Assembly: GCF_003634965.1 (NCBI RefSeq)
Contig: NZ_RBXP01000015.1
Coordinates: 1-64,000, forward strand
From: Azonexus fungiphilus
GTDB lineage: Bacteria > Pseudomonadota > Gammaproteobacteria > Burkholderiales > Rhodocyclaceae
DNA length: 64,000 nt
Reading direction: 5' to 3'
Both the position numbers and the translations under genes were made by a program. Under the pieces are notes generated by a model. It ran no database searches, had not been told where the DNA came from, and was given only the letters and a program-made list of their open reading frames with translations. Positions 230 through 57,510 of the stretch are shown one piece after another. Position 1 is the first letter of the stretch. The number at the start of each line of letters is the position of its first letter.

Positions 230-1657
230 CTAGGTACGCCGCAGCGTCAACCGCGCTTCCCCGCCACCCTCCGGATGATTCGCAAACCCCGCCTCGCCAC
301 CGTGCAGTCGCGCCACCTCCCGCACCAACGCCAACCCCAACCCCGTGCTCTTCTTCCCCGTCGCCGGCCGGGGCAGGGAATAGAAGCGGTTGAAAAGCTG
401 CGCCAGCGCGTAGTCCGGGGCGCCGGCGCCGTGGTCGCGGATGCGGATTTCGGCGGTTTCGACGGTCGACCGCAGAATTAGCGAGATTTCGCCGCCGTCG
501 GGCGAGAACTCGATGGCGTTGTCGAGCAGGTTGAGGACGGCCTGGCGCAGCAGGAAGGCGTCGCCGTTGAGGGTGATACCCGGTTCGGCGTCGATGACGC
601 AATGCAGGTTGCGGGCGGCGAGCGCCAGCTGGCGGTCGGCGACGGCGGTTTTCAGCAGTTCGGCGAGGTCGACCGTCAGATTGGCGCCGGGCGCCTGCAG
701 TTGTTCGACGCGGGCGAGTTGCAGCATGCGTTCGATGATGTCGCTCAGCCGGCCGGCCTGTTCGCCGATGCTGGCGGCGAAGCGGCGGCGGTCTTCGGCC
801 GGGAGTTCGTCTTCGAGGATTTCGGCGGCGCCGATCACGGCGGTCAGCGGGCTTTTCATCTCGTGCGCCAGGTTCTGCACGTAGCGTTCGACGTACTGCT
901 TGCCTTCGAGCTTTTCGCGCATCGTCGCCAGCGCCTGCGCCAGTTCGGAGAGTTGGCGGCCGCCGCCGCTCGGCGGTTCGGCCTTCCGCCCTTCGCTGAC
1001 GGCGCGGGCGTAGTCGCGCAGGCGGTGGATCGACCAGCTGAGCCAGGCGGTGAACACCAGGCCGATCAGCGCCGTCGCCAGCAGCAGCGTCAGGCCGGAA
1101 GCGCGCACGCGGTCGGTGGCGCGCTCGACGAAGGGGGCGATCGAGGTCATCGGCTTGGCCAGCGAGACGACGCCGATCAACTGGCCGTCGCGGCGCACCG
1201 GCGCGGCGACGTGCATGACCGAGGTGCTCGGGTCGTTGGCGTCGTAGCGGCTCTGGCGGGCGCCGTATTCGCCGCGCAGGACGCGGGCGACGTCGTTCCA
1301 TTGGGAAAAATCCTCGCCCCTGGCTTGCCCGGCCGAGTCGTAGACGACGACGCCGCGCGCGTCGGTGAGGTAGATGCGCAGGTCGACGCTGTCTTTCCTG
1401 ATGCCGTAGATCTCGGCATTCGGATGGCGCTGCAGTGCGGCGGCGACGGCTTTGGCGAAGGCGCCGTCCTCGATGCGCCCGGCGGCGAGTTCGCCGGCGG
1501 CCAGTTCGGCGAGCAGGTTGGCGCTGTCGACCAGGCTTTCCTCGGTGGCCTGGCGGATGCTCGGCTCGCTCTCCTTGACGAAGGTGTAGAGCACGAACCA
1601 GGCGGCCAGGCCGACCACCAGGAAATAGCCGAAAAACAGGCGGACCGAGATGTTCAC
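230..1657 (-). CDS. creC: CreC-type sensor histidine kinase
   Basis: Membrane sensor kinase that would phosphorylate the CreB-like regulator encoded just upstream. The 475 residues match the length of E. coli CreC (about 474). A first membrane segment lies at about residues 7-26, then a periplasmic domain to about 185, a second membrane segment at about 188-210 and a HAMP-like linker. The H-box NLAHEMKSPLTAV has the phospho-acceptor His at residue 265. An N-box (LLDNAIEFSPDGG) and G-boxes (DHGAGAP, STGLGLALV) follow, so the kinase looks intact. It starts 3 bases after the creB stop. The natural signal is not evident; naming as CreC rests on length, architecture and pairing. Confidence 0.85.
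   Translation of the reverse strand: MNISVRLFFGYFLVVGLAAWFVLYTFVKESEPSIRQATEESLVDSANLLAELAAGELAAGRIEDGAFAKAVAAALQRHPNAEIYGIRKDSVDLRIYLTDARGVVVYDSAGQARGEDFSQWNDVARVLRGEYGARQSRYDANDPSTSVMHVAAPVRRDGQLIGVVSLAKPMTSIAPFVERATDRVRASGLTLLLATALIGLVFTAWLSWSIHRLRDYARAVSEGRKAEPPSGGGRQLSELAQALATMREKLEGKQYVERYVQNLAHEMKSPLTAVIGAAEILEDELPAEDRRRFAASIGEQAGRLSDIIERMLQLARVEQLQAPGANLTVDLAELLKTAVADRQLALAARNLHCVIDAEPGITLNGDAFLLRQAVLNLLDNAIEFSPDGGEISLILRSTVETAEIRIRDHGAGAPDYALAQLFNRFYSLPRPATGKKSTGLGLALVREVARLHGGEAGFANHPEGGGEARLTLRRT
463..472. repeat. CGGTCGACCG palindrome, exact copy
   Basis: Exact copy of the dispersed palindrome, inside creC near its ATPase domain. Here the repeat is read in the frame that gives Arg-Ser-Thr-Val. 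Confidence 0.6.
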
Positions 1658-1660
1658 GGT

Positions 1661-2335
1661 TCAGGTCGCCAGGCTGTAGCCGAGGCCGCGATGGGTGAGG
1701 ATGACCTCGTCGTCGCGCACCGCGCGCAGCTTGCCGCGCAGCGTCTTGATGTGGGTGTCGACGGTGCGCTCCAGGCTTTCGCCGTCGTCCTGCCAGACCG
1801 CCGCCATGATCTGCGGGCGGCTCAGGATGCGTCCCGGGCGTTCGAGCAGCAGTGCCAGCAGCAGGTATTCGTAGCGGGTCAGCGCCAGCCAGTGGCCGTG
1901 GTAGGCGATGCGCAGGCCGTCACGGTCGACGGCGAATTTCGCCGGTTTTTCAGGTTGACCGCGAGATTCGCCGTTGGCGTGCAGGCGGCGCAGGATGGCG
2001 CGCACCCGCGAGGCGACCTCGCGCGGGCTGAACGGCTTGGTGACGTAGTCGTCGCCGCCCAGTTCGAGGCCGACGATGCGGTCGACCTCGTCGGAACGGG
2101 CGGTCAGGAACAGCACCGGCAGGTCGGAGTCGCGGCGCAGCGCCCGACAGACGTCGAAGCCGGTGATGTCGGGCAGGCCGACGTCGAGCACGACGAAATC
2201 GATGCCGCCTCGTTGCAGCCGCGCCAGCGCCTCGCCGCCCAGCGTGCAGCACTCGGTGGCGAAGCCCTCGGCGCGCAGCGCGTAGCTCAGCGTATCGGCG
2301 ATGGCCGGTTCGTCGTCGACGATCAGGATCTTCAT
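1661..2335 (-). CDS. creB: CreB-type OmpR-family response regulator
   Basis: Two-component response regulator of 224 residues, first gene of a creB-creC operon. The receiver domain has the acidic pair near residue 7, the phospho-acceptor Asp51 (VVLDVGLPD) and Lys100 (YVTKPFSP). A C-terminal winged-helix domain of the OmpR/PhoB type follows and ends TLRGKLRAVRDDEVILTHRG. The start is the ATG giving MKILIVDDEP; a longer frame exists upstream but does not resemble the family. The linker between the domains (KFAVDRDG) carries a copy of the dispersed GGTCGAC palindrome. Confidence 0.85.
   Translation of the reverse strand: MKILIVDDEPAIADTLSYALRAEGFATECCTLGGEALARLQRGGIDFVVLDVGLPDITGFDVCRALRRDSDLPVLFLTARSDEVDRIVGLELGGDDYVTKPFSPREVASRVRAILRRLHANGESRGQPEKPAKFAVDRDGLRIAYHGHWLALTRYEYLLLALLLERPGRILSRPQIMAAVWQDDGESLERTVDTHIKTLRGKLRAVRDDEVILTHRGLGYSLAT
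1923..1932. repeat. CGGTCGACGG, one-mismatch palindrome copy
   Basis: One-base variant of the dispersed palindrome in the interdomain linker of creB, followed by the A/T tract GAATTTCGCCGG. The surrounding CCGTCACGGTCGACGGCGA is nearly the same as the copy at 13602 in mutL. Confidence 0.45.
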
Positions 2336-2432
2336 GATGGCGGCAATGATAAGGCAAGGCCGGCGAAAATCGGCCGCGGCGGCCGGTTGACCGTGACAAT
2401 CCGCCGGCCGGCGGCAAACCCGCAGCAAACCC

Positions 2433-2461
2433 TTAGGATGGCGACGGGTTTCGGGTAAAAT
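2433..2461 (+). promoter_or_regulatory. candidate sigma-70 promoter for purM
   Basis: TTAGGA (2433-2438) and TAAAAT (2456-2461) are separated by 17 bases, in the gap between the divergent creB and purM genes. The predicted start of transcription is about 25 bases before the purM start codon. Confidence 0.4.
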
Positions 2462-2493
2462 CCGCGTTTTTCAGCAGCTTGGCCTTGTCCATC

Positions 2494-3534: not shown

Positions 3535-4078
3535 TCTCGTCAGGCGGGTCGCGGCGCTCTGCTGCGGCCTCGGCCTGGCCGGCGCCGTGGCGGCCAGCGA
3601 GCTGTCGGCGCCGGCGACTGTCGTAGACGGCCTGGCCAGCTTCTACGGCGGCAAGTTTCACGGTCGACCGACGGCCAGCGGCGAAAAGCACGACAAGGCC
3701 GTATTCACCGCCGCCAGCAACCATTTTCCACTCGGCAGCATGCTTGCCGTGATGCGCCCGGCCAACGGCCTGTGCGTCATCGTCCGGGTCAATGACCGGA
3801 TGCATCGCCGGCAGCGCGCGCGCATCGTCGACATCTCGCGTGGCGCCGCCGATTACCTCGAAATGCTCAAGGCCGGCGTTGTCCGCGTCCGCGTCGCGCC
3901 GTTGCGCGACGACTGGCGCCAGCGCGGCGTCGCCGCCTGCGGCGATGCCTTCGCACCTTGCCCGGGATGTGCGGCAGTGGCCGAAAGCGCCGCAGCGGCG
4001 GGCGAGGCGGGGAATCTTGGGTACAATCCCGAGACTATAACCATTCTCAAGCCGGACACCGGCCTTTCCCACCAATGA
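3506..4078 (+). CDS. RlpA-like double-psi beta-barrel protein, exported
   Basis: Exported protein of about 190 residues with one RlpA-type double-psi beta-barrel (about residues 50-140): [19 protein letters not shown], then [21 protein letters not shown]. RlpA proteins are septal-ring lytic transglycosylases or peptidoglycan binders. The usual TAAH motif reads TAASNH, so the conserved His is displaced and activity is doubtful. No SPOR domain is present. The start is uncertain: GTG at 3506 gives a good signal peptide (basic start, hydrophobic core, cut near AVAAS), while a GTG at 3464 would add 14 residues. Both lie inside purM. Its stop overlaps the next ATG (ATGA). Confidence 0.7.
3661..3670. 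repeat. CGGTCGACCG palindrome, exact copy
   Basis: Exact copy inside the RlpA-like gene. Here the frame gives Gly-Arg-Pro and falls within the conserved [10 protein letters not shown] motif, so this copy could be coincidental. Confidence 0.4.
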
Positions 4079-8189: not shown

Positions 8190-8190
8190 T

Positions 8191-10249: not shown

Positions 10250-10276
10250 GGCGGCGAATGCTAGCACGAGCCGCCG

Positions 10277-13012: not shown

Positions 13013-14812
13013 TTATTGTCCGCGCAGAAACAGTTTGTCGAGTTCGTTGAGCGACAGTTCGCTCCAGGTCGGCCGTCCGTGGTTGCACTGGCCGGCGCGC
13101 TCGGTCTCTTCCATCTGGCGCAGCAGCGCGTTCATCTCGGGCAGCGCCAGTTGCCGGCGGGCGCGCACCGCGCCGTGGCAGGCCATGGTCGCCAGCAGTT
13201 CGTTGCGCCGCGCGGTGGCCAGCTGGCTGATGCCGTGTTCGCGCAGGTCGGCGATCAGCGAGCGCGCCAGCGCCACCGGGTCGCCCGACTGGAGCAGCGC
13301 CGGCACGGCGCGTACGCCGAGTTGCCCGGGGCCGAGCGGGGCGATCTGGAAGCCGAGTTCGGCGAGCGCTTCCGCGTGTTCCTCGACCGCCGCGACGTCG
13401 AGCGGATCGGCCGAGAAGACGGCCGGGATGAGCAGGTTCTGGGTCGCCACCTGGCGGCTGTCGAAGGCGTTCTTCAGCTTTTCGTAGAGGATGCGCTCGT
13501 GCGCCGCGTGCATGTCGACGACGATCAGGCCGCGTGCGTTCTGCGCCAGGATGTAGATGCCGTGCAGTTGCGCCAGCGCGTAGCCGAGCGGCGGACCGTC
13601 ACGGTCGACGGCGATTTCCGGGCGGAATTGCGGCGCTTCGGCGGCGCTGCCGGCGTGGGCGGCCCGGGCGAAGGCCAGGTAGCTGGCGACTGCCGGCTCC
13701 TCGACGCCGAGGCTGGCCTGGCGCGGCGCTGCGGAGAAGGCGGCGGCGGGCGGGCGCGGCGGCGGGCTGGAAATTGGCGCAATCTGACGGTCGACCGTCA
13801 GATCCGGCATTTTTTCCGGGGCCGGGGCCTGGATCGGCGTCGCCAGCGTGCGCTGGATGGCGTGGTAAACAAACTGGTGTACGGCGCGCGAATCGCGGAA
13901 GCGGACTTCGGTCTTGGCCGGATGGACGTTGACGTCGACCAGCCCGGGGTCGATCTCGAGGAACAGGCAGACGGCCGGCTGGCGGGCGCCGTGGAGGACG
14001 TCGCGGTAGGCCTCGCGCAGCGCGTGGCCGATGATCTTGTCGCGCACGAAGCGGCCATTGACGAAGACGTTCTGGCCGTCCTTGGCCTCGCCGGCGCGGG
14101 TCGGATCGATGGCGAAGCCGTGCAGCGAAATCGGCCCGGCGGCGGCGTCGACCGTGCGCGATGCGGCGACGAAGTCGTCACCGACCACCTCGCCGATGCG
14201 CCGGGCGCGGTCGGCCGGGGCCAGCTGGAACAGGCTGCGCCCGTTGTGCGTCAGGCTGATGGCGACGTCCGGCCGGGTCAGCGCCAGGCGGCGGACGGCG
14301 TCGGCGCAGTGGGCGAACTCGGTGCTCTCCGACTTGAGGAACTTGCGCCGCGCCGGGGTGTTGTAATAGAGGTCGCGCATCTCGACCACGGTGCCGGCCA
14401 TCAGCGCCGCCGGTTCGGGTGCGGCACCATTTTCGCCGCGCAGCTTCCAGGCATGCGCGGCGCCGCGTTCGCGGCTGGTGATGGCGAGCCGGGCGACGGC
14501 GGCGACCGAGGCCAGCGCTTCGCCGCGAAAGCCGAAGCTGGCGACGCGTTCGAGGTCGTCGAGGCTGGCGATCTTCGAGGTGGCGTGCCGGGTCAGCGCC
14601 AGCGCCAGTTCGTCGCGGGCGATGCCGCAGCCGTCGTCGGTGATGCGGATCAGCTTGACGCCGCCTTCCTCGAGATGCACCTGGATCGCCGTGCTGCCGG
14701 CGTCGAGGCTGTTTTCGAGAAGCTCCTTCAACACGGAGGCGGGTCTTTCGACGACCTCGCCGGCGGCAATCTGGCTGATCAGGAGGTCGGGGAGGCGGGC
14801 GATGGTCGGCAT
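13013..14812 (-). CDS. mutL: DNA mismatch repair protein MutL
   Basis: Mismatch repair ATPase of 599 residues. The N-terminal GHKL ATPase has ELLENSLDAGS, DDGCGI and GFRGEALASV. The C-terminal dimerization domain contains DMHAAHERILYE, which fits the DMHA(X)2E(X)4E metal-binding motif described for the nicking-endonuclease MutL of Neisseria; E. coli MutL lacks it. The proline-rich linker (about 335-410) contains two copies of the dispersed palindrome, encoding LTVDRQ and IAVDRDG. ATG at 14812 gives the canonical start MPTIARLPDLLISQIAAGEV. Confidence 0.96.
   Translation of the reverse strand: MPTIARLPDLLISQIAAGEVVERPASVLKELLENSLDAGSTAIQVHLEEGGVKLIRITDDGCGIARDELALALTRHATSKIASLDDLERVASFGFRGEALASVAAVARLAITSRERGAAHAWKLRGENGAAPEPAALMAGTVVEMRDLYYNTPARRKFLKSESTEFAHCADAVRRLALTRPDVAISLTHNGRSLFQLAPADRARRIGEVVGDDFVAASRTVDAAAGPISLHGFAIDPTRAGEAKDGQNVFVNGRFVRDKIIGHALREAYRDVLHGARQPAVCLFLEIDPGLVDVNVHPAKTEVRFRDSRAVHQFVYHAIQRTLATPIQAPAPEKMPDLTVDRQIAPISSPPPRPPAAAFSAAPRQASLGVEEPAVASYLAFARAAHAGSAAEAPQFRPEIAVDRDGPPLGYALAQLHGIYILAQNARGLIVVDMHAAHERILYEKLKNAFDSRQVATQNLLIPAVFSADPLDVAAVEEHAEALAELGFQIAPLGPGQLGVRAVPALLQSGDPVALARSLIADLREHGISQLATARRNELLATMACHGAVRARRQLALPEMNALLRQMEETERAGQCNHGRPTWSELSLNELDKLFLRGQ
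13602..13611. repeat. CGGTCGACGG, one-mismatch palindrome copy
   Basis: Variant copy in the mutL linker, within CCGTCACGGTCGACGGCGAT, which is nearly the same as the creB copy at 1923. Confidence 0.45.
13782..13803. repeat. 22-base perfect palindrome around CGGTCGACCG
   Basis: The longest copy: 22 bases that read the same on both strands, from ATCTGACGG to the mirrored end, centred on GTCGAC at 13790-13795. It lies in the MutL linker and encodes Leu-Thr-Val-Asp-Arg-Gln. The left half AATCTGACGGTCGACCGT recurs at 20376. Confidence 0.7.
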
Positions 14813-14855: not shown

Positions 14856-15500
14856 ATGGAACTGCTCACCCAATTCATCGACATCATCCTCCACCTCGAC
14901 CAGTACCTCGCCGTCCTCGTCCAGGACTACGGGTTGTGGATCTACGCCATCCTCTTCTTCATCGTCTTCGCCGAGACCGGATTCGTCATCTTCCCCTTCC
15001 TGCCCGGCGATTCGCTGCTCTTCGTCGCCGGCGCGCTGGCCGCGCTCGGCCAGGGCGGCATGGACATCACCACGCTGTGCGCCGTCCTCCTCGTCGCTGC
15101 CGTGCTCGGCAACACGGTCAATTACCAGATCGGCCGCTTCCTCGGGCCGAAGGTCTTCCACTGGGAGAACTCGCGCATCTTCAACAAGGCGGCGCTGCAG
15201 AAGACGCACGCCTTCTACGAGCTGCACGGCGGCAAGACCCTGATCATCTCGCGCTTCCTGCCGCTGTTCCGCACCTTTGCGCCGTTCGTCGCCGGCATCG
15301 GCGCGATGTCCTGGGCCAGATTCACCTTCTACAACCTGGTCGGCGCCGCCGCCTGGGTGCTTTCGCTGTGCCTGGCCGGCTACTGGCTGGGCAACCTGCC
15401 CTGGGTCAAGCAGAACCTGTCGCTGCTGATCGTCGCCATCATTGCCGTCTCGCTGGTGCCGGCGGCGATCGGCTACCTGCAGCACCGGCGGACCGCCTGA
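14856..15500 (+). CDS. DedA/VTT-family membrane protein
   Basis: Integral membrane protein of 214 residues in the DedA family, implicated in lipid scrambling or proton-dependent membrane homeostasis. Family signatures include ETGFVIFPFLPGDSLLFVAG near residue 40-60, the GxxxNYQIGRFLG segment, and the RFLPLFRTFAPFVAG motif with its conserved arginines. At least four hydrophobic segments are visible. It starts 43 bases from the divergent mutL start. Its stop overlaps the start of the following lipoprotein gene by one base. Confidence 0.9.
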   Translation: MELLTQFIDIILHLDQYLAVLVQDYGLWIYAILFFIVFAETGFVIFPFLPGDSLLFVAGALAALGQGGMDITTLCAVLLVAAVLGNTVNYQIGRFLGPKVFHWENSRIFNKAALQKTHAFYELHGGKTLIISRFLPLFRTFAPFVAGIGAMSWARFTFYNLVGAAAWVLSLCLAGYWLGNLPWVKQNLSLLIVAIIAVSLVPAAIGYLQHRRTA

Positions 15501-16201
15501 TGCGCTGGCTGCTGCTCGCCTGCCTCGCCGTCGCCCTGGTCGGCTGCTCGACCCGGCTCGGCCGCGACGGGCGCAGCGATACCACGGTCAACGCCCGTTA
15601 CCTGCTGAAAACCGAGGTCGACCGCATCGCCGACACCACACGCCGCGAGATCGGCGACGGCCTGCTGCTGATCGCCGACAAGCTGTACAAGCGCAATCCG
15701 CGCGAGTGGAAGCGCGCCGGCCTGGCCAGCCGCGAGGCTGCCGTCGACCGCCTGCGCCAGCGTGTCCGCCACGACTGGCCCGAGCTGGGCGGCCAGCGCG
15801 AGCGGCTGGCCGCCCAGCAGGCGTTCACCGAGACTTACGCCGGCGACCGCGTCGCGGCGCTGATCTTCGGGCTGCTGACGATGGTCGACGCCGCCTTCGA
15901 GCACAAGGACGATTTCTACGTCCTCGACAGCCTGAACGAGATCAAGCTCTACAACGCCGCGCGCAACATGGAGATCGCCATCTGGAAGCTCGGCCACGAC
16001 CGGCGCACCGGCGGCGAGCTCTTCCTGCTCTCGAACGAACTCGATCCGGCCAACCGCAACCTGTCCTTCGAGCGCGAGTTCGGCCGCGTCATCGGCCTGC
16101 TCGACCTGATGGCGCAGGTCGTCGCCGACCGCAACGGACGCACGCTGTCGCGGGTCACGCAATCGGTGGCGACGGCCATCTTCCTTCCCGTAGGTTTCTG
16201 A
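15500..16201 (+). CDS. hypothetical lipoprotein
   Basis: Protein of 233 residues with a lipoprotein signal: a hydrophobic run followed by the lipobox LVGC at residues 13-16. The mature part is hydrophilic and mostly helical (for example YLLKTEVDRIADTTRREIGDG and DSLNEIKLYNAARNMEIAIW) and shows no enzyme motif. I do not recognise a named family. It sits between a DedA gene (TGATG overlap) and purN (2-base gap), in one probable operon. The function is unknown; an envelope location is the only safe statement. Confidence 0.75.
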   Translation: MRWLLLACLAVALVGCSTRLGRDGRSDTTVNARYLLKTEVDRIADTTRREIGDGLLLIADKLYKRNPREWKRAGLASREAAVDRLRQRVRHDWPELGGQRERLAAQQAFTETYAGDRVAALIFGLLTMVDAAFEHKDDFYVLDSLNEIKLYNAARNMEIAIWKLGHDRRTGGELFLLSNELDPANRNLSFEREFGRVIGLLDLMAQVVADRNGRTLSRVTQSVATAIFLPVGF

Positions 16202-16858: not shown

Positions 16859-17848
16859 ATGCGGCGCCTGCTGATCGCCGCCCTCGTCGTCTCCTTGCTG
16901 GTGCACGCCTGGGCGCTGTTCGGCATCGATTTCGGGATGTTCGGCGAAAGCGAGCCCGAGCTGCCGCCGCTGCAGGCCGAACTGCGCCCGCTGCCGCCGC
17001 CAGCGCCAGCCGTGCCGGCCCCGCTGCCAGCGCCGGTGGTCGAAGCGGCGCGCGCCGAGCCGCCGGCCGCGGCGCCGGAAATTGCCGAAAACCGACCGTC
17101 GACCGTGGACGCCGTGGCGCCGCCCGAGCCCGTCGACAGCGAAAGCGCCGCCGTACCGCCGCCGGCGCCTGAACCGATGGCCGCGGCGCTCGCTGGCGGC
17201 GGCCGGCTGGCCTTCGTCGTGGTCAAGGAATCGCTCGGCATGCAGATCGGCCGCGCCGTCCATCGCTGGGAATTCGCCGCCGACGGCAGCTACCGCCTGC
17301 ACGCGATGATCGAGACCAGCGGCCTGGCGGCGCTGATCAAGCCGCTGCGCCAGGAGCACGAAAGCCGCGGCCGGCTCGGCCCCTACGGCCTGCAGCCGGA
17401 ACAGTTCCGGGTCTTCCGCAACGGCCGGCCGCGCGGCGAAAATGCCGATTTCGACTGGTCGACCGCGGAAGTCCGCCTCGAACGCGACGGCAGCGTCCAT
17501 CGCGTCGCCCCGGGGACGCAGGACCTGCTCTCGCTGAACTACCAGCTGGCCTACCTGAAGGCGCCCGAGAACGGCGCCACGATCGGCGTCGTCACCGGCC
17601 GCAAGTACGAGCGCTACGCCCTCGATTCCTTCGGCGAGGAAGAGATCGAGACGCCGGCCGGGCGTTTCCGGACGCTGCACCTGCGCGCCGCCGGCGAAAC
17701 CCTGAGCGAAATCTGGATTGCGCTCGACCACTACCGCTTGCCGGTTAAAATCCGCTTTACCGATCGCAAGGGCGACAGCTACACGCAGCTCGTCACCGAA
17801 CTCGACGGCGCCGAACCGGCGCCGCCGCAAGACTTAGGAAAACCATGA
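16859..17848 (+). CDS. DUF3108 protein with N-terminal anchor and Pro-rich linker
   Basis: Envelope protein of 329 residues. A TonB-like beginning (membrane anchor at about 3-21) is followed by an Ala/Pro-rich stretch (about 30-115) that could span periplasm. A DUF3108 domain follows (about 116-315), recognised from FVVVKESLGMQIGRAVHRWEF, GLQPEQFRVFRNGRPRGE and ETPAGRFRTLHLR. The domain is common in beta-proteobacteria and has no proven function. The linker segment ENRPSTVDAV contains a copy of the dispersed palindrome. The gene overlaps the methyltransferase start by 4 bases (ATGA). Confidence 0.85.
   Translation: MRRLLIAALVVSLLVHAWALFGIDFGMFGESEPELPPLQAELRPLPPPAPAVPAPLPAPVVEAARAEPPAAAPEIAENRPSTVDAVAPPEPVDSESAAVPPPAPEPMAAALAGGGRLAFVVVKESLGMQIGRAVHRWEFAADGSYRLHAMIETSGLAALIKPLRQEHESRGRLGPYGLQPEQFRVFRNGRPRGENADFDWSTAEVRLERDGSVHRVAPGTQDLLSLNYQLAYLKAPENGATIGVVTGRKYERYALDSFGEEEIETPAGRFRTLHLRAAGETLSEIWIALDHYRLPVKIRFTDRKGDSYTQLVTELDGAEPAPPQDLGKP
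17096..17105. repeat. CCGTCGACCG, one-mismatch palindrome copy
   Basis: Variant copy in the Pro-rich linker of the DUF3108 gene, preceded by the A/T tract GAAATTGCCGAAAACCGA. The tract AAATTGCCG also flanks the copy at 44229. Confidence 0.5.
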
Positions 17849-19107
17849 AAGCCCGCTTCACCCCAGCCCTCTTTGCCCACGCCGAAGCCGTCCTCGGCGA
17901 GGTGCTGCGCTTCGCGCATCCGGCCGATGCCGTCGTCTCCCGCTACTTCCGCGAGCATCGTCAGCTCGGTCACGCCGACCGCGGCTTCGTCGCCGAGACG
18001 GTGTTCGCCGTGCTCCGCCGCGGGCGCAGCATCGAGGCGCGCTGCGCCGGCCGCCTGTCCGACCGCCAGCGCCTGCTGGTGACGCTGGCGCTGACGCGCG
18101 GCTGGGGGCTGCGCGAACTGGCGCCGGTGCTCAACGCCAACGAGCAGGCCTGGCTCGAAGCCGCCCGGGCGCTGCCCGAGGCCGGGCTGCCGCCGGCGGT
18201 GCGCTGCGACCTGCCGGACTGGCTGCACGCCCGCCTGCTCGGCCAGTATCCGGAAGCCGAGGTCGAACAGCTGGCCGCCGCGCTCAACCGTCCGGCGCCA
18301 CTCGACCTGCGCGTCAATACCTTGAAGACGAATCGCGAGCAGCTGCTCGGCGAACTCGCCGCGGCCGGCATCGAGGCCGTCGCCGGCCAGTGGTCGTCGC
18401 TGGCCGTGCGCCTTGCCGACAAGCCGGCGCTGGCCAAGCACCCGCTCTTCCTCGGCGGTGCCTTCGAGGTCCAGGACGAGGGCAGCCAGCTGCTCGGCCT
18501 GCTGGTCGAGGCCCGGCGCGGCGAGATGGTCGTCGACTTCTGCGCCGGCGCCGGCGGCAAGACGCTGCTGCTCGGCGCCCAGATGCGCAACACCGGCCGC
18601 CTCTACGCCTTCGACGTCTCGGAAAAGCGCCTCGCCAACCTGAAGCCGCGGCTGGCCCGTTCCGGGCTGTCGAACGTCCATCCGGTGCGCATCGAGCACG
18701 AGCGCGACCTGAAGATCAAGCGCCTGGCCGGCAAGGCCGACCGCGTGCTGGTCGATGCGCCGTGTTCCGGCCTCGGCACGCTGCGCCGCAATCCCGACCT
18801 GAAATGGCGCCAGGACGCGGCGGCAATCGCCGAACTCGGCGCCAAGCAGACCGCCATCCTCGATTCGGCAGCGCGCCTGGTGCGCCCCGGCGGTCGCCTG
18901 GTCTATGCCACCTGCAGCCTGCTCGCCGAGGAAAACGAGGCGGTCGTCACCGACTTCCTCGCCCGGCATCCGGATTTCGTGCTGATGCCGGCGTCGACCG
19001 TGCTCGAACGCCAGGGCATCGCCCTGCCCGGCGACATGCTGCGCTTGCTGCCGCATCGCCACGATACCGACGGCTTCTTCGCCGCCGTGCTGGAGAAGCG
19101 GGCATGA
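17845..19107 (+). CDS. RsmB/NOP-family RNA cytosine-5 methyltransferase
   Basis: SAM-dependent methyltransferase of 420 residues acting on cytosine in RNA, probably 16S rRNA. The N-terminal third is a helical NusB-like region. The catalytic domain shows the SAM-binding CAGAGGKTLLLGA, the motif IV cysteine in VDAPCSGLGTLRRNPD and the motif VI cysteine in VYATCSLLAEENE, both needed for catalysis. RsmB itself is often next to fmt, which is not the case here, so a paralogue is possible. It is coupled by ATGA overlaps to the genes before and after it. Confidence 0.88.
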   Translation: MKARFTPALFAHAEAVLGEVLRFAHPADAVVSRYFREHRQLGHADRGFVAETVFAVLRRGRSIEARCAGRLSDRQRLLVTLALTRGWGLRELAPVLNANEQAWLEAARALPEAGLPPAVRCDLPDWLHARLLGQYPEAEVEQLAAALNRPAPLDLRVNTLKTNREQLLGELAAAGIEAVAGQWSSLAVRLADKPALAKHPLFLGGAFEVQDEGSQLLGLLVEARRGEMVVDFCAGAGGKTLLLGAQMRNTGRLYAFDVSEKRLANLKPRLARSGLSNVHPVRIEHERDLKIKRLAGKADRVLVDAPCSGLGTLRRNPDLKWRQDAAAIAELGAKQTAILDSAARLVRPGGRLVYATCSLLAEENEAVVTDFLARHPDFVLMPASTVLERQGIALPGDMLRLLPHRHDTDGFFAAVLEKRA

Positions 19108-20375: not shown

Positions 20376-20393
20376 AATCTGACGGTCGACCGT
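20376..20393. repeat. CGGTCGACCG palindrome, exact intergenic copy
   Basis: Exact ACGGTCGACCGT at 20382-20393, preceded by AATCTG as in the mutL copy. It starts 6 bases after the MscS stop, in non-coding DNA, so no protein constraint explains it. Confidence 0.65.
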
Positions 20394-20416
20394 GCCCGCC
20401 GGCCATTTATCGGTGG

Positions 20417-27202: not shown

Positions 27203-27697
27203 ATGCCGAGCTTTGACTTCACCTCCGAAGCGGACATGGTGGCGTTGAAGAACGCCGTCGACATCACCGCCCGCCAGATCGACAATCGCTACGACTTCAA
27301 GGGAACCTCGGCCAAGGTCGAGCTGAACGAGAAGGACAAGGTCATCACCCTGCACGGCGACTCCGATTTCCAGCTCGACCAGATCAAGGACATCCTCTTC
27401 CCGGCGATGGAGAAGAAGGAGGCCGAGAGCACCAAGCGTCTCGATCACCAACCGGTGCAGAAGGTCTCGGGCAACAAGGTCAAGCAGGAACTGAAGATCA
27501 AGAACGGCATCGAGACCGAGATGGCGAAGAAGATCGTGAAGATGATCAAGGATGCCAAGCTCAAGGTCCAGGCTTCGATCCAGGGCGACGAAGTGCGCGT
27601 CCAGGGGGCCAAGCGCGACGATCTGCAGGAGTGCATCGCGCTGGTCAAGAAGACGATCACCGACTTCCCGATCCGCTACGGCAATTTCCGCGATTGA
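27203..27697 (+). CDS. yajQ: YajQ-family nucleotide-binding protein
   Basis: Cytosolic protein of 164 residues with the two ferredoxin-like domains of the YajQ family; members in Xanthomonas and Pseudomonas bind c-di-GMP. MPSFDFTSEADMVALKNAVD, RYDFKGTSAKVEL and VRVQGAKRDDLQ are typical. It closes the arg-to-yajQ transcript. A palindrome copy begins 3 bases after the stop, then a terminator. Confidence 0.93.
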   Translation: MPSFDFTSEADMVALKNAVDITARQIDNRYDFKGTSAKVELNEKDKVITLHGDSDFQLDQIKDILFPAMEKKEAESTKRLDHQPVQKVSGNKVKQELKIKNGIETEMAKKIVKMIKDAKLKVQASIQGDEVRVQGAKRDDLQECIALVKKTITDFPIRYGNFRD

Positions 27698-27699
27698 TC

Positions 27700-27711
27700 A
27701 CGGTCGACCGT
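27700..27711. repeat. ACGGTCGACCGT palindrome, exact intergenic copy
   Basis: Exact 12-base copy in the short gap between the yajQ stop and the terminator. It is outside any gene. Confidence 0.65.
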
Positions 27712-34857: not shown

Positions 34858-36072
34858 ATGCAATTTGACGTGATCGTCATCGGTGCCGGCGCCGCCGGCA
34901 TGATGTGCGCCGCCCAGGCCGGCGCCCGCGGCCGGCGCGTGTTGCTGGTCGACCACGCCGACAAGCTGGGCGAGCGCATCCGCATTTCCGGTGGCGGGCG
35001 CTGTAACTTCACCAACCGCAGCGTCAGCGCCGACAACTACCTGTCGCAGAACCCGCATTTCTGCCGCTCGGCGCTGGCCCGTTTCACCCAGCACGATTTC
35101 ATCGCGATGCTCGACAAGCGGCGCATCGCCTACCACGAGCGCGAGCACGGCCAGCTGTTCTGCAACGATTCGGCCGAAGAGATCATTGCCATGCTGCGCG
35201 ACGCCTGCGTCGAGGCCGGCGTGCGCTGGGCGATGCCGTGCGCCGTCGCCGGCGTCGAGCGCCTGGAAAATGACACGCTGCTGCCGTGGCGGGTGCTGAC
35301 CGATCAGGGGACGTTCCGCAGCCAGTCGCTGGTCGTCGCCACCGGCGGCCTGGCGATTCCGAAGATCGGTGCTTCGCCCTTCGGCTATCGCCTGGCCGAG
35401 CAGTTCGCCATTCCAGTGGTCCCGCCACGGCCGGCGCTGGTACCGCTGGCGCTGGCCCCGGAGCTGCTCGAGCCGCTCAAGCCGATGGCTGGCGCGACGC
35501 TGGACGCCAGCGCCCGCTTTGATCAAGCCGCCTTCCGCGAAAACGTGCTGATCACCCATCGCGGCCTGTCCGGGCCGGCCATCCTGCAGATATCCAGTTA
35601 CTGGCAGATGCAGGAATACCGTAGCGGCAAAAAGCGTCCGGTCGACATCGACCTGCTCCCGGGGATCGACGCTGGCGATTGGCTGGAAAGCCAGCGCCAG
35701 GGCCGCGTGCATCTGCCCAACCTGCTTGCCGAGCGCCTGCCGCGGCGTTTCGCCCATGAATGGTGCATGCTGCAGGGCGGCGACAAGGCGGTGAACCGGC
35801 CGATCGGCGAACTCGGGCGCCGCGACCTCGAGCGCATCGCCGGCCTGCTCAACGCCTGGCCGCTGATGCCGGCGGGCACGCTCGGCTTCGCCAAGGCGGA
35901 AATTACCCTCGGCGGCGTGTCGACCGTCGCATTGTCGTCAAAGACCATGGCTGCGCGCGACGTGCCCGGCCTCTACTTCATTGGCGAAGTGGTCGACGTC
36001 ACCGGCTGGCTGGGTGGTTACAACTTCCAGTGGGCCTGGTCGTCGGGCTGGGTCGCCGGCCAGTTCGCCTGA
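34858..36072 (+). CDS. HI0933/YhiN-family flavoprotein
   Basis: FAD-binding protein of 404 residues. The N-terminal dinucleotide-binding motif VIGAGAAGMMCAAQAG and the family signature RISGGGRCNFTN are clear; the C terminus LGGYNFQWAWSSGWVAGQ closes the FAD site. The electron acceptor and substrate are unknown in this family. TAGAAT in the gap ahead may be a -10 element. The gene converges with the flavoprotein at 36073, with no spacer between the stops. Confidence 0.9.
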   Translation: MQFDVIVIGAGAAGMMCAAQAGARGRRVLLVDHADKLGERIRISGGGRCNFTNRSVSADNYLSQNPHFCRSALARFTQHDFIAMLDKRRIAYHEREHGQLFCNDSAEEIIAMLRDACVEAGVRWAMPCAVAGVERLENDTLLPWRVLTDQGTFRSQSLVVATGGLAIPKIGASPFGYRLAEQFAIPVVPPRPALVPLALAPELLEPLKPMAGATLDASARFDQAAFRENVLITHRGLSGPAILQISSYWQMQEYRSGKKRPVDIDLLPGIDAGDWLESQRQGRVHLPNLLAERLPRRFAHEWCMLQGGDKAVNRPIGELGRRDLERIAGLLNAWPLMPAGTLGFAKAEITLGGVSTVALSSKTMAARDVPGLYFIGEVVDVTGWLGGYNFQWAWSSGWVAGQFA

Positions 36073-37686
36073 TCAGGCCTGCATCATCGCCCGGGCCACT
36101 GCCTCGGCGACCTTGATCCCGTCGACGCCGGCCGAGAGGATGCCGCCGGCGTAACCGGCGCCTTCGCCGGCCGGATAGAGGCCGCGCGTGTTGATGCTCT
36201 GGTAGTCGTCGCCGCGCTTGATGCGGATCGGCGACGAGGTGCGCGTCTCGACGCCGGTGAGCACCGCGTCGGCCATCGCGAAACCGTGGATCTGCCGGTC
36301 GAAGGCGGGGATGGCTTCGCGCAGCGCGTCGATGACGAAGGCCGGCGCGCAACTGCTCAGGTCAGTCATGTGCACGCCCGGCTGGTAGGACGGATCGACC
36401 TGACCGAGGACGGTCGACGGCCGTCCGGCGAGAAAATCGCCGACGCGCTGGGCCGGTGCGTCGTAGTTGCTGCCGCCGGCGAGGAATGCCTGGCTTTCCC
36501 AATGACGCTGGAAATCGACGCCGGCCAGCGGGTTCTGGCGGTAGTCGCCGGGAAAGTCTTCCGGCTCGACATTGACCACCAGCGCCGAATTGGCGTTGCG
36601 CTCGGCGCGGGAGTACTGGCTCATGCCGTTGGTGACGACGCGGCCGGGTTCCGAGGTAGCGGCGACCACCTGGCCGCCCGGACACATGCAGAAACTGTAG
36701 GCGGCGCGGCCGTTGGCGCAGTGATGGACGAGCTTGTAGTCGGCGGCGCCGAGCAACTCGTTGCCGGCATTGGGGCCGAAGCGGGCCTTGTCGATCAGTG
36801 TCTGCGGGTGCTCGATGCGGAAGCCGATGGCGAAGGGCTTGGCTTCGACATAGACGCCGCTGTCGTGGATCATCTGGAAGGTATCGCGAGCGCTGTGGCC
36901 GATCGCCAGCACCACATGGCGGCTGGCGATACGCTCGCCGCCGGCGAGTTCGACGCCTTCGACCTGGCCGTTGGCGATCTGCAGGCGCTCGACGCGGGCG
37001 CCGAAGCGAATTTCGCCGCCCAGTTCGCGGATCGTCGCGCGCATGTTCTCGACCATCTTGACCAGCCGGAAGGTGCCGATGTGCGGCTTGCTCACGTACA
37101 TGATCTCTTCAGGCGCGCCGGCCTTGACGAATTCGGCCATGACCTTGCGCCCGAGGAAGTTCGGGTCCTTGATCTGGCTGTACAGCTTGCCGTCGGAGAA
37201 GGTGCCGGCGCCGCCTTCGCCGAACTGGACGTTCGACTCCGGGTCGAGCACGTGCTTGCGCCACAGGCCCCAGGTGTCCTTGGTCCGCTCGCGCACGGCC
37301 TTGCCGCGTTCGAGGATGATCGGCCGGAAACCCATCTGCGCCAACAGCAGCCCGGCCATCAGGCCACAGGGGCCCATGCCGATGACCACCGGGCGCTCGT
37401 TCAGGCCTTCGGGGGCGCGGGCGACGAAGTGGTAGTCCATGTCCGGCGTCGGCACGACGTGGCGGTCGTCCTTCAGGCGGGCGGCGACGCGGGCTTCGTC
37501 GCGCAGTTCGACGTCGATCTGGTAGAGCAGGACGATGGCCGATTTCTTGCGCGCATCGTGGCTGCGCTTGAACACCGTGTAGCCGATCAGTTCGTCGTCG
37601 GCGATACCGAGCCGGGCACACAGCGCCGGGCGCAAGGCTTCCGGCGGGTGATCGAGCGGCAGCTTGAGTTCGGTCAGGCGCAGCAT
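36073..37686 (-). CDS. FAD-dependent dehydrogenase (COG2509-like)
   Basis: Flavoprotein of 537 residues. An N-terminal region of about 95 residues (RLTELKLPLDHPPEALRPAL) precedes the FAD motif VIGMGPCGLMAGLLLAQMG. The QFGEGGAGTFSDGKL and SFCMCPGGQVVAATSEPG blocks are typical of this uncharacterised dehydrogenase family. The end AGEGAGYAGGILSAGVDGI holds the second flavin contact. It lies 1 base downstream of the c'-type cytochrome gene on the same strand, which may be its redox partner. Confidence 0.9.
   Translation of the reverse strand: MLRLTELKLPLDHPPEALRPALCARLGIADDELIGYTVFKRSHDARKKSAIVLLYQIDVELRDEARVAARLKDDRHVVPTPDMDYHFVARAPEGLNERPVVIGMGPCGLMAGLLLAQMGFRPIILERGKAVRERTKDTWGLWRKHVLDPESNVQFGEGGAGTFSDGKLYSQIKDPNFLGRKVMAEFVKAGAPEEIMYVSKPHIGTFRLVKMVENMRATIRELGGEIRFGARVERLQIANGQVEGVELAGGERIASRHVVLAIGHSARDTFQMIHDSGVYVEAKPFAIGFRIEHPQTLIDKARFGPNAGNELLGAADYKLVHHCANGRAAYSFCMCPGGQVVAATSEPGRVVTNGMSQYSRAERNANSALVVNVEPEDFPGDYRQNPLAGVDFQRHWESQAFLAGGSNYDAPAQRVGDFLAGRPSTVLGQVDPSYQPGVHMTDLSSCAPAFVIDALREAIPAFDRQIHGFAMADAVLTGVETRTSSPIRIKRGDDYQSINTRGLYPAGEGAGYAGGILSAGVDGIKVAEAVARAMMQA
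36411..36420. repeat. CGGTCGACGG, one-mismatch palindrome copy
   Basis: Variant copy inside the flavoprotein gene, encoding part of GRPSTVLGQ. Like several other copies it gives Pro-Ser-Thr-Val. Confidence 0.4.
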
Positions 37687-44672: not shown

Positions 44673-45278
<606 letters not shown>

Positions 45279-48521: not shown

Positions 48522-48534
48522 CGCGTGCTCCAGA

Positions 48535-48837: not shown

Positions 48838-48847
48838 GACGACTCCT

Positions 48848-49702
48848 TCAGGTATTCCAGATTCTGGGCAAAACGGCCGGTCGGCCGCAGCAGGCCGGAC
48901 GCAGGATTTTCCATAATTCGATGCACCACAGCCGGGCGGCCTCGCTGTTGTCGCCGAGATAGCGAGCAAGCAGCATGCCCGGCAGTACGGTGATGCCGTG
49001 GCCTGCGCCATCGCCGGGGGCGACGGCGCGCAAGGCCTCGAGCAGGCCGGCGGCCTGCTGCGGCAGTTCCGGGAAGCTGCACTGCAGCGTCGCGCAGACG
49101 GTCGCGCCGGACCAGCCGGCCGGGCTGGCGAGCATGGCGTCGCCGCCATCGACGCGGCCGCGTTCGATCCACAGCGGGCGCTGTTCACGGTCGACCCGCG
49201 AAAACAGCGAAAAATGCCCGCGCGTGAAACGTTCGCCGGCGGCGGCGCGCCCCAGGCAGAGGATGTCCCAGCCCAGGTAGCGGGCGTCTGCGGCGAGGCT
49301 GACGCGGGTCTCCATGCGGGCGAGCGCGCCGTCGAAAACGATCGCCTCCTGCGGCAGCCATTCCAGCGTCGCGCCGGGGCCGACCTCGAGCCGCACCGTC
49401 TGCGATGCCTCGGCGCCGCCCGAGCGATACCACTTGCCGGCGCCCGGGGTGGTGATTTGTGCGTGCGTCTGACGGTCGACCGTGATGCCGATCGATAAAT
49501 GGTCGCCGCCGGCGATCCCCGACGGCGGGTGCAGCAGCAGCGCCTGGCAGACGCCGTCGCCTTCCGGGTAGAGCGCCTTCTGCACGCGCAGCGGGCCGCG
49601 GTGGCGATTCTCGCCGAGCACGCTGCGTTCGCCCTGGCGGTGGAAGGCAAGGTGGAGCTCGGCTTGCCAGGTCGGCGCGGCATCGGGAAGGCGTGAATTC
49701 AT
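48848..49702 (-). CDS. ureD: urease accessory protein UreD
   Basis: First gene of the urease operon; scaffold of 284 residues for nickel delivery. Typical blocks are [20 protein letters not shown] near residue 92 and [14 protein letters not shown]. Two palindrome copies lie in the gene: an exact one encoding ITVDRQ near residue 75, and a one-sided one encoding SRVDRE near 172. No typical sigma-54 site was found upstream. No urea or nickel transporter gene is in the operon. Confidence 0.95.
49472..49483. repeat. ACGGTCGACCGT palindrome, exact copy in ureD
   Basis: Exact 12-base copy preceded by TCTG, as in the mutL and 20376 copies. It encodes Thr-Val-Asp-Arg in UreD; the same tetrapeptide is encoded in mutL. 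Confidence 0.6.
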
Positions 49703-53680: not shown

Positions 53681-53764
53681 TCGTCTCTCCCCCCTGGATA
53701 ACGAGCCAACAGTCTAGCGCGTTCCGGCGCCGCCGGCACCAGTCTGGTGCAGGGTCGGCGGCGT

Positions 53765-54613
53765 TTACTGGCGGATTTCGCGGGTGTTGCCGGGCAGCGC
53801 GAACTCGCCGCTGCTGCGGAAGGGGTTGATGTCGAGGCCGCCGCGCCGGGTGTAGCGGGCGTAAACCGAGAGCGCCTCGGGGGCGCAGCGGCGGCTCAGG
53901 TCGCAGAAGATGCGCTCGACGCACTGCTCGTGGAACTCGTTGTGGTTGCGGAACGAGACCAGGTAGCGGAGCAGGCCGGCGTGGTCGATCGGCCGGCCGC
54001 GGTAGCGGATGATCACCATCGCCCAGTCGGGCTGGCCGGTGACCAGGCAGTTCGACTTGAGCAGGTGCGAATACAGGGTTTCCTCGGTTTTTGCCGTTTC
54101 CGGGGCGTCGACCGTGGACAACAGTTCCGGCATCGGCTGGTAGTCGGTGCAGTCGATGTCGAGCTCGTCGAGGGCGATGCCCTGCGGGTATTCGATGACA
54201 TTTTGCGGTCGACCGCGCAAATCCTCGATTTTTGCCGTCACCGGCGCCCCGGCCGCGGCCGAGAGGTCGCGCTGCAGTGTCGTGACGACCGCGGCGAGGT
54301 CGGCGAAGACGGTCTGGTTGAAGGAGTTCAGGTAGAGCTTGAACGACTTCGATTCGATCAGGTTCGGGCTGTCGGCCGGAATCCGGAAGCTGCCGACGGC
54401 GACCACCGGTTTGCCGCGCGGGTTGAGCCAGGACAGCTCGTAGGCGTTCCAGATGTCGGCGCCGACGAAGGGCTGCGTGCCGGCCGCGATGCCCAGCTCG
54501 GCGCGCTTGAGCTGGCGCGGGATCGGGTAGAGCAGTTCCGGCGCGTAGTCGCTGCGGTACTCGGTCGGCTTGCCGAGCGGGGAAAGGGTGCTGGGGTCGA
54601 GGGTCGGATTCAT
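53765..54613 (-). CDS. queF: NADPH-dependent 7-cyano-7-deazaguanine reductase
   Basis: Reduces preQ0 to preQ1 in queuosine synthesis; 282 residues, the long two-domain form. Catalytic Cys189 is in [12 protein letters not shown], with Asp196, as in the E. coli enzyme (190 and 197). [10 protein letters not shown] is also conserved. Two palindrome copies lie in the gene, encoding RGRPQN and STVDAP. TAAAAT just ahead of the start may be a -10 element for its own transcript; otherwise it is the tail of the ABC operon, 30 bases after the ATPase stop. Confidence 0.95.
54206..54215. repeat. CGGTCGACCG palindrome, exact copy in queF
   Basis: Exact copy within the 12-base palindrome GCGGTCGACCGC, next to ATTTTTGCCGTCACCGG. 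It encodes Gly-Arg-Pro in QueF. A second, one-sided copy lies at 54105-54119. Confidence 0.6.
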
Positions 54614-54643
54614 CGCCGCGATTTTACCGGAGCACCCCGCCGT

Positions 54644-56009: not shown

Positions 56010-56674
56010 TTCGTTCTCCGGGCGATCAGTCGCTGGCCGGCCTGGATCAGCACCTGGCGGACGGCGATGGCGAGCAGGAAGTAGATCGCGGTGACGACGA
56101 AGTAGGTTTCGAAGGCGCGGAAGTTGCGCGACTGGATGAAGTTGGCGGCGAAGGTCAGCTCCTCGGCGGCGATCTGCGAGCAGACCGAGGTGCCGAGCAT
56201 GACGATCACCACCTGGCTGCAGATCGCCGGCCAGACCTTGAGCAGCGCCGGCGGCAGGACGACGTGGCGGAAGATCTGCGCCCGGCCCATGGCCAGCGAC
56301 TGCGCCGCCTCGATCTGGCCCTTGGGCGTCGCCTCGATGCCGGCGCGGATGATCTCGGTGGTGTAGGCGCCGAGATTGACGACGACGGCGAGGATCGCCG
56401 CCTGCCATTCGTTGATCTGCACGCCGAGCGAGGGCAGGCCGAAGAAGATGAAGAACAGCTGGACGAGGAAGGGGGTGTTGCGGATCGCCTCGACATAAAC
56501 CGCGAACAGCCGGTCGAAGGGTGCCAGTTTCCAGGCCCGCGACACCGCGCCGAGGATGCCGACGGCGAGTCCGAGGACGGTGCCGATGGCGGTCAGCGCC
56601 AGCGTCTTCAGGGTGCCGTCGACGAGTACCTCGCGGTATTCGAGCACGGAAGCGAAATCGAATGCGTAAGCCAT
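56006..56674 (-). CDS. polar amino-acid ABC transporter permease
   Basis: Partner permease of 222 residues. [20 protein letters not shown] is the family motif; the EAA loop contains [22 protein letters not shown] heterodimer with the other permease is expected. It follows the binding-protein gene on the strand with a 44-base gap. Confidence 0.93.
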
Positions 56675-56718
56675 CGGCTATCCTCCGGCGCCGCCCGCGG
56701 GCGGCGCCATGCGTGTGA

Positions 56719-57510
56719 TCAGAGGCCGGCCGGCAGCGGGGCCTGCAGCCAGCGTTGCGAGACCTGGTTGAGTTCGCCGTTGGCCTTGAGCTTGCCGATG
56801 ACCTCGTTGACCTTGGCCAGCAGCGCCGCTTCGCCCTTGTTCACACCGACGTAGCAGGGCGAGTTCTTGATCAGGAACTTGGTGTCCAGGCGGCGGATCT
56901 TGGTGCGTTCGTTGACTGCGGCGGCGACGACGTTGCCGGTGGCGATCAGTTGCACCTGGCCGGACAGGTAGGCCGAAATGGTCGCGTTGTTGTCCTCGAA
57001 ACGCTTGATGTTCACGGTCGACGGGGCGATTTTGCTGAATTCCAGGTCCTCGACCGAGCCGCGGGTGACGCCCAGCGTCTTGCCGGCGGTGTCGGCGGCG
57101 CTCTTGACGACGGCGTCGGCCGGGCCGAAGACGCCGTTGAAGAACGGGGCGTAGGCGACCGAGAAATCGATCACCTTCTCGCGGTCCGGGTTCTTGCCCA
57201 GGCTGGAGATGACCAGGTCGGCCTTGCCGGTGGTCAGGTAGGGAATGCGGTTGGTGCTGGTGACCGGGATGATCTCGACCTTGAGCTTGAGTTCGCGGCC
57301 GATCAGGTTGGCGACGTCGATGTCGTAGCCGCGCGGCTTGAGGTCGGGGCCGACGGTGCCGAAGGGCGGGAAGTCCTGTGGCACGGCGACGCGCAGCACA
57401 CCGTTCTTCATGGCGTCGGCGAGCACGTCGGCGTGGGCGCCGGCGGACAGCGCGGCGCTGCCGATCAGCGCGGTGGCGAGGAGGCTGCGGAGGAATTGGC
57501 GTTTCTGCAT
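56719..57510 (-). CDS. polar amino-acid ABC transporter substrate-binding protein
   Basis: Type II periplasmic binding protein of 263 residues with a signal peptide (cut near AGAHADV). GVLRVAVPQDFPPFGTVG, RGYDIDVANLIGREL and the DLVISSLGKNPDRE segment are typical of the polar amino-acid family. The exact ligand is unknown. The gntR gene ends 25 bases upstream, so the gene is in a regulator-led operon. EFSKIAPSTVNIKRF contains a palindrome variant. Confidence 0.92.
   Translation of the reverse strand: MQKRQFLRSLLATALIGSAALSAGAHADVLADAMKNGVLRVAVPQDFPPFGTVGPDLKPRGYDIDVANLIGRELKLKVEIIPVTSTNRIPYLTTGKADLVISSLGKNPDREKVIDFSVAYAPFFNGVFGPADAVVKSAADTAGKTLGVTRGSVEDLEFSKIAPSTVNIKRFEDNNATISAYLSGQVQLIATGNVVAAAVNERTKIRRLDTKFLIKNSPCYVGVNKGEAALLAKVNEVIGKLKANGELNQVSQRWLQAPLPAGL
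57015..57024. repeat. CGGTCGACGG, one-mismatch palindrome copy
   Basis: Variant copy inside the binding-protein gene, followed by GGCGATTTTGC. It encodes Pro-Ser-Thr-Val. Confidence 0.4.

Follow-up and report, generated by a model that had tools for sequence, protein, structure and literature searches.

What is the 10-base palindrome CGGTCGACCG, which recurs across the first 64,000 nucleotides of contig NZ_RBXP01000015.1 of Azonexus fungiphilus (hereafter, the window)? The original prediction treated it as a word dispersed through genes and gaps and offered three readings: a relative of HIP1, a methylase target, or a binding site for a chromosome-organizing protein. A dispersed signal at the DNA level, in genes and gaps and in several reading frames, was borne out. 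However, the palindrome is not the unit. The unit is an asymmetric sequence of about 30 bp, RCGGTCRAC followed by 15 bases and then WWWWYS (IUPAC codes), and it is this sequence that a protein probably recognizes. Judging from its architecture and distribution, we believe that the repeat is probably the DNA uptake signal sequence of a naturally transformable Azonexus lineage, which we take to lie in the Rhodocyclales by NCBI usage. Natural transformation was never raised among the earlier readings.

All seven exact copies of the palindrome claimed for the window are present, and an eighth, at 45016, had been overlooked; the expectation is 0.33, and the maximum in 100 dinucleotide shuffles was 3. 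ACGGTCGACCGT occurs four times, as claimed (13787, 20382, 27700, and 49472). The seven near-copies with one mismatch are real, but they are only 7 of 20 such matches, and the one placed at 44229 starts at 44228. The window's own genome (G000; 3,546,071 bases in 20 contigs) contains 344 copies of CGGTCGACCG, compared to 116 for the word read backwards. For a 464-kb sample, made up of positions 1 to 400,000 of one of its contigs (C1) plus the window, a fourth-order Markov model predicted 7.7 copies of CGGTCGACCG and 0.2 of ACGGTCGACCGT, while 44 and 18 were found. Counts no higher than those of a third-order Markov model would have refuted the original prediction, but 88 two-strand counts of the palindrome exceed the 19.3 expected.

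The strongest words in the 464-kb sample are mostly nonpalindromic (CACGGTCGAC, ACGGTCGACC, TCACGGTCGA, and GACCGTGAA), and alignment on ACGGTCGAC brought out A/T tracts at a fixed distance in the flanks. Such tracts beside the palindrome had been noticed before, and their fixed offset proved to be the key to the true unit. WWWW stands at +24 in 195 of 296 RCGGTCRAC cores (background, 1.7%), and WWWW peaks again at +13 to +15; a strong tract thus lies two helical turns downstream of the core and a weaker one at one turn. Among the 218 nonpalindromic cores, WWWW is found at +24 in 139 and at +14 in 40, while no left-hand offset between −18 and −4 shows it in more than 9. Because nonpalindromic cores keep the right-hand tracts and the left-hand ones all but vanish, the unit is asymmetric. 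The palindrome was rejected as the unit, since nonpalindromic cores carry downstream tracts alone. Palindromes are two overlapping, opposed units with a common core, and the copy at 45016 is perhaps there by chance. The sequence of the 15-base spacer is not conserved.

We used RCGGTCRAC-N15-WWWWYS as the strict pattern and the reversed pattern as the control. A constrained matrix gave the consensus T(C/G)[A/G]CGGTC[G/A]AC-N15-WWWW-Y-S; it replaced an unconstrained refinement, which had drifted to codon periodicity, and was built using an information cutoff and a reversed-matrix control. In the 464-kb sample, which was also the training set, 293 sites scored at least 14 (one per 1.6 kb), compared to 3 for the reversed matrix. 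The tract is present in 112 of 142 copies of ACGGTCGAC. Two variants are tolerated, GCGGTCGAC (G at position 0) with the tract in 34 of 78 copies and ACGGTCAAC (A at position 6) with the tract in 31 of 41, while the remaining 25 one-mismatch variants, with their counts summed, show it in 12 of 210. Perfect copies with the tract (112) therefore exceed those with a tolerated R change (65) and those of the other 25 variants (12). Such a surplus of perfect over singly mismatched copies is described as a puzzling attribute common to the uptake signal sequences (USS) of Pasteurellaceae and the DNA uptake sequences (DUS) of Neisseriaceae (PMC1626085).

The strict pattern occurs 1,179 times in the 3.55 Mb of G000 (one copy every 3 kb), while the reversed control gave 0. 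The copies are balanced between the strands (588/591), with no skew in C1:1-400 kb (82/73) or in the window (10/12), and their spacing in C1:1-400 kb is near random (coefficient of variation, 0.99). Coding status was taken from gene calls by a codon-based script (coding fraction, 0.854), and 227 of the 293 matrix sites are coding. The unit is thus over-represented on both strands, in coding and noncoding DNA, on the order of one copy per kilobase, as uptake signals generally are.

For one window protein, the best named match was in Azonexus sp. isolate GS18 (L001; 77% identity), which does not differ over the mutL segment from G010, a genome placed in the same genus as the window; we therefore take the genus to be Azonexus in the GTDB sense. 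We examined 76 of its genomes (each designated by a G number). Forty of them have 74 to 343 strict copies per Mb and 36 have 0 to 29, with none between; we termed the former (at least 74/Mb) carriers and the latter (at most 29/Mb) noncarriers. Outside the genus, there were at most 13 copies per genome in 285 genomes of the same family and at most 10 in 198 of the order. The motif is near control level there, the reversed pattern giving single-digit counts with few exceptions (up to 16). A mutL tree was built for 24 genomes, namely G000, 20 of 23 further genomes (for G013, G044, and G045, no retrieved locus covered the segment), and three named loci. On this tree, the carrier label needs 3 changes, compared to a mean of 8.3 when shuffled (0 of 500 as low). 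The noncarriers G043 and G050 form a group with G000 (100/100), itself a carrier, and the other members of the weakly supported set of ten in which they fall (87/82) are all carriers. An alternative core-plus-tract dialect was sought in 100-kb samples of eight noncarriers (G047, G041, G059, G079, G016, G055, G062, and G051), and none comparable was found, although weak dialects could escape this search. The best z of a 7-mer coupled to an A/T tract was 19.4 in 100 kb of G000 and at most 7.6 in the eight noncarriers.

The 100-kb sample of the noncarrier G059 has 10 copies of ACAAGGATGC (expected, 0.4) and 10 of GCTCAATGCC (expected, 1.0), which may stem from a local gene repeat or represent a further dispersed word. 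A genome of another genus has 7 of its 13 units within 12 kb (G302:C38:39389-51383), as if carrier DNA had been imported. Likewise, 7 of the 83 units of G043 lie within 7 kb (G043:C14:84043-90979) and could mark tracts imported from a carrier.

Six window sites were aligned across relatives; rows count here if 30 or more of their bases aligned. Substitutions account for most differences at sites 14155, 15585, and 17466; at 13602 and 13788, the mutL linker aligns poorly and gaps are common, and only two relatives aligned at 17106. Of the 10 carriers aligned at the site that ends at 17466, 9 have CGGTCGAC, while none of the 11 aligned noncarriers does. Three of these nine carriers have C at the first (R) position, and the carrier without the motif is G076. 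Copies were not inserted as a mobile unit, a point that the original prediction had proposed to settle by aligning orthologues.

Comparisons were also made over larger regions. Opposed units were counted once each, and the neutral expectation was the product of flank identities, not a codon model. Between G000 and the carrier G008 (83.5% identity), 46 of 68 strict sites are intact, with a rough neutral expectation of 0.16, and in the other direction the count is 46 of 61. Core identity is 0.910 and that of the flanks is 0.829. Import by recombination is not favored as the source of these shared sites, since flank identity is not raised (0.829 versus 0.835 overall). With the carrier G076, 7 of 10 sites are intact. 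In contrast, the noncarrier G050 (85.7% identity to G000) keeps 4 of 47, with a core identity of 0.726, flanks of 0.838, and gaps in 15 of the 47 aligned sites (8% of random windows). Of the 46 sites common to G000 and G008, G043 keeps 4 of 37 aligned and G050 keeps 3 of 18; core identities there are 0.695 and 0.698, compared to 0.858 and 0.854 in the flanks. Copies are therefore maintained in place between carriers and eroded in noncarriers. If the mutL tree is right, the sites common to G000 and G008 are ancestral, and the noncarriers lost them faster than the flanks changed. Arising and being maintained in place, and not by insertion, is a general property of uptake signals.

Uptake specificity of this kind has been described from two families (PMC1939737, PMC7811141). 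Pasteurellaceae USS have a core of AAGTGCGGT or ACAAGCGGT (Hin type AAGTGCGGT, Apl type ACAAGCGGT(C)) and two 3′ AT-rich segments, the second centered 12 positions past the first in the Hin type (PMC1626085). The minor groove is narrow in these tracts, and sites that are taken up well differ in predicted shape from those taken up poorly (PMC7811141). The Azonexus unit shares this layout, being asymmetric with a short core and two 3′ A/T-rich segments about one helical turn apart (WWWW peaks start at +14 and +24 in nonpalindromic cores). Both repeats have about a thousand or more copies in coding and noncoding DNA, with more perfect than singly mismatched ones, and in both, new sites come about by mutation in place (PMC1626085). 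The Azonexus core also has GCGGTC in common with the Apl-type ACAAGCGGTC if R is G. However, the core is RCGGTCRAC and neither of the USS cores; the core-proximal tract is weaker and farther from the core, the tracts are about 10 bp apart as opposed to 12 in the Hin type, and the strong tract may be A-rich, T-rich, or mixed. The host is also different, a betaproteobacterium of 66% GC, with the unit in about half of the sampled species in one genus. Because the cores do not match, we call the unit USS-like and not a Pasteurellaceae USS.

Like the DUS of Neisseriaceae (GCCGTCTGAA and its dialects, with the receptor ComP), the unit would be a dispersed self-recognition word in a betaproteobacterial family, and its palindromes resemble the overlapping, dyad-symmetric DUS pairs known in Simonsiella (PMC3630211). 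Unlike DUS, which are described in PMC1626085 as having no flanking motifs, it has a flanking tract and an unrelated core. The unit is therefore neither GCCGTCTGAA nor one of its dialects. HIP1 and other highly iterated palindromes are dispersed palindromic words of coding and noncoding DNA; in Azonexus, however, the palindrome is secondary, and the distal A/T tract is part of the unit. REP/REPIN elements are mainly extragenic and spread by transposition, neither of which applies here.

Uptake signals are generally rare in recently acquired DNA, and this is also true of the Azonexus unit. In the carriers G073, G049, and G002, comEC is split by inserts of 34 to 49 kb with a GC content of 0.52 to 0.56 (flanks, 0.61 to 0.64). 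These three inserts have 1 strict site in 125,555 bp, while their flanks have 34 in 154,445 bp (binomial P of 2.7e-8, with sites treated as independent). The largest site-free gap in C1:1-420,000, at 378,718-399,291, contains an island with a GC content of 0.53 (G000:C1:378,730-395,070), which encodes a phage tyrosine integrase and an AAA_25 ATPase. An atypical distribution of DUS likewise marks mobile elements (PMC7371117).

The comEC gene itself appears to be hit by large inserts again and again, and such inserts would block transformation. Inserts of about 20 to 64 kb split it in G091, G005, G049, G079, G002, G018, G041, and G073, and the break places recur, near profile positions 143 to 166 in the first six genomes and near 590 in the other two. 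A second break is present in G018, and G090 and G075 have shorter breaks near 145. These inserts occur in carriers and noncarriers alike.

How would an uptake signal of this kind work? We infer that a surface receptor, probably a type IV minor pilin, would grip the core and sense the phased A/T tracts, either by way of the minor groove or by how they bend. Fragments with a tag would be taken up preferentially via the type IV pilus, ComEA, and ComEC, and recombination of tagged alleles into the chromosome would enrich the tags genome-wide, a molecular drive. The tags would carry a small cost to the genes holding them, and once a lineage lost its uptake bias, they would erode. G000 encodes an uptake machine, with comEC in one piece, ComEA, and a minor pilin locus, pilY1-fimT-pilV-pilW-pilX-pilE (PilY1, FimT/GspH, a PilV-like pilin, PilW, PilX, and a last pilin). 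The last pilin (G000:C2:97,432-97,683) matches ComP_DUS (“DNA uptake sequence receptor”; E of 1.1e-15), and we regard this putative family member as a lead to the receptor only.

Several points weigh against an uptake signal. ComEA matches occur in 75 of the 76 genomes (67 over the curated cutoff) and ComP_DUS-family pilins in 70 of the 76, regardless of the motif; since carriers and noncarriers have both alike, no receptor gene is singled out. When the minor pilins of G000 were compared with those of G043, G076, G044, G041, and G059, all proved divergent, and again no receptor stood out. Judged on comEC integrity alone, the motif does not track competence genes: comEC is in one piece in 25 of 31 carriers and 14 of 20 noncarriers (Fisher test, 0.50) among the 51 of 76 genomes that are at least 90% complete and at most 5% contaminated. 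The class “not in one piece” was read by hand and mixes large inserts, frameshift-like breaks (G059 and G057), and separate contigs (G008, G019, and G006). The core matches that of neither known family of uptake signals, 10 to 47 sites underlie the comparisons of G000 with G050, G043, and G076, and any host-specific motif would be expected to be depleted in recent inserts. In the open-access literature searched, no transformation is reported for the genus, and no uptake sequence is described in Rhodocyclales, Azonexus, or Dechloromonas. Where PMC7593972 deals with uptake sequences, it is about Neisseria constructs, and in PMC9045156, “natural competence” stands in the reference list only.

With no association found, comEC integrity was dropped as a predictor of the motif. 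GspH/FimT is absent in 1 of 40 carriers and 6 of 36 noncarriers (P of 0.048), a post hoc comparison confounded by assembly quality.

We favor an uptake signal because layout, copy number, the absence of strand skew, the perfect-copy surplus, and depletion in large inserts fit it better than the alternatives. The main rival, which was already among the original readings, is the binding site of a lineage-specific nucleoid or chromosome-organizing protein that would read the core and phased A/T tracts and bend or bridge DNA. Helically phased tracts fit DNA bending, and strand balance, lineage-specific presence, and depletion in recent inserts agree with such a protein. However, for a binding site born by mutation, it would be unusual to have some 1,200 strict sites that are highly specific and coding-tolerant and yet few singly mismatched versions (PMC1626085). 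The near-random spacing and lack of skew in C1:1-400 kb also speak against it, as does a layout that matches a known uptake signal, and we consider this explanation unlikely.

The core contains GTCGAC or GTCAAC, and HIP1-like words are dispersed palindromes, so that a word recognized by a DNA methyltransferase or restriction system might be considered, as might a HIP1-like palindrome tied to such a system. Yet the basic unit is not palindromic, and a methylase would not specify a tract 15 bases past the core, which stands exactly at +24 in the 139 nonpalindromic cores noted above. Both of these earlier proposals leave the sharply spaced tract unexplained, and we find them very improbable. Transcription terminators or other RNA-level signals are suggested by the hairpins that opposed pairs make, by convergent intergenic gaps (14 sites in 7.2 kb), and by the Pasteurellaceae and Neisseria uptake signals that occur in terminators too (PMC1852404). 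With most matrix sites coding and both orientations to the gene common (122 same, 105 opposite), this would be at most a secondary use, and as the explanation of the repeat it is highly doubtful. We give scarcely any credence to a mobile or copied repeat (REP/REPIN-like) spread by insertion. Copy number is high, and palindromic pairs are more often intergenic (18 of 39) than single cores (24 of 218), but orthologues differ at several sites by substitutions in place, gaps affect 11 of 68 aligned sites from G000 to G008 and 5 of 61 in reverse (random windows, 9%), the spacer is unconserved, and most copies are coding. An accident of codon or amino acid usage is next to impossible: same-strand sites in genes favor the frame [T/A]V[D/N] (94 of 122), but other frames, the opposite strand, and noncoding DNA are used too, and the orthologous genes of noncarriers, mostly without the motif, contradict it.

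Our judgment leans, if only slightly, toward a broader proposal: a further uptake-signal system outside Pasteurellaceae and Neisseriaceae, with the Pasteurellaceae layout and a GCGGTC-like core in a GC-rich betaproteobacterial genus, switched on in 40 of the 76 species genomes and off in the other 36, its tags being removed faster than the flanks change after loss of the bias. Whether uptake tags are selected or just accumulate by biased uptake is an open question, and this system, if real, would be direct evidence that they are costly passengers held up by molecular drive. Dozens of carrier and noncarrier species in one genus would make rates of gain, loss, and cost testable by comparison and could show which receptor changes accompany the tags. 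Convergence on a core with phased A/T tracts would limit the ways in which a receptor could read DNA ahead of its passage through the outer membrane, and a tag of this kind could help open up environmental strains of Azonexus and Dechloromonas to genetic work.

Table 1. Units and palindromes in the window, with genic or intergenic placement according to our own gene calls
Feature	Location	Coordinates	Strand	Remark
Strict unit	Histidine-kinase gene 230-1657(-)	462..491	+	Holds palindrome 463-472; weaker opposed unit starts at 473(-)
Strict unit	Gene 230-1657(-)	647..676	-	
Strict unit	Response-regulator gene 1661-2335(-)	1922..1951	+	Near-copy 1923 of the original prediction
Strict unit		1933..1962	-	Opposed to unit 1922..1951
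Strict unit	Intergenic	2365..2394	-	
Palindrome		3661..3670	+	Plus-strand unit with AAAA tract; fails strict pattern at base after tract
Near-copy	mutL	13602..13611	+	Matrix score 25.3, not strict
Strict unit	mutL	13769..13798	-	One half of palindrome 13788-13797
Strict unit	mutL	13787..13816	+	Other half of palindrome 13788-13797
Strict unit	mutL	14126..14155	-	Aligned across relatives
Strict unit	Gene 15500-16201(+)	15584..15613	+	Aligned across relatives
Strict unit	DUF3108 gene 16859-17848(+)	17077..17106	-	Near-copy 17096 of the original prediction
Strict unit	DUF3108 gene 16859-17848(+)	17437..17466	-	Holds CGGTCGAC
Strict unit	RsmB/F-like methyltransferase gene 17845-19107(+)	18972..19001	-	
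Strict unit	Intergenic	20382..20411	+	Palindrome 20383-20392
Strict unit	Intergenic, 3′ of YajQ gene 27203-27697(+)	27682..27711	-	Palindrome 27701-27710
Strict unit	HI0933-like gene 34870-36072(+)	35898..35927	-	
Strict unit	Gene 36073-37686(-)	36410..36439	+	Near-copy 36411 of the original prediction
Exact palindrome		45016..45025	+	No strict tract on either strand; only TTT at minus-strand tract place
Strict unit	Predicted gene 48848-49621(-)	49187..49216	+	
Strict unit		49472..49501	+	Palindrome 49473-49482
Strict unit	queF gene 53765-54613(-)	54086..54115	-	
Strict unit	queF	54187..54216	-	One half of palindrome 54206-54215
Strict unit	queF	54205..54234	+	Other half of palindrome 54206-54215
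Strict unit	Gene 56719-57510(-), resembling ABC-transporter substrate-binding proteins	57014..57043	+	Near-copy 57015

Uptake signals are biased to genome-maintenance genes, as cited in PMC2346458. The window has 22 strict units (Table 1), three of which fall in mutL (13013-14812) together with one more high-scoring site, and two of these three form a palindrome between the conserved domains.

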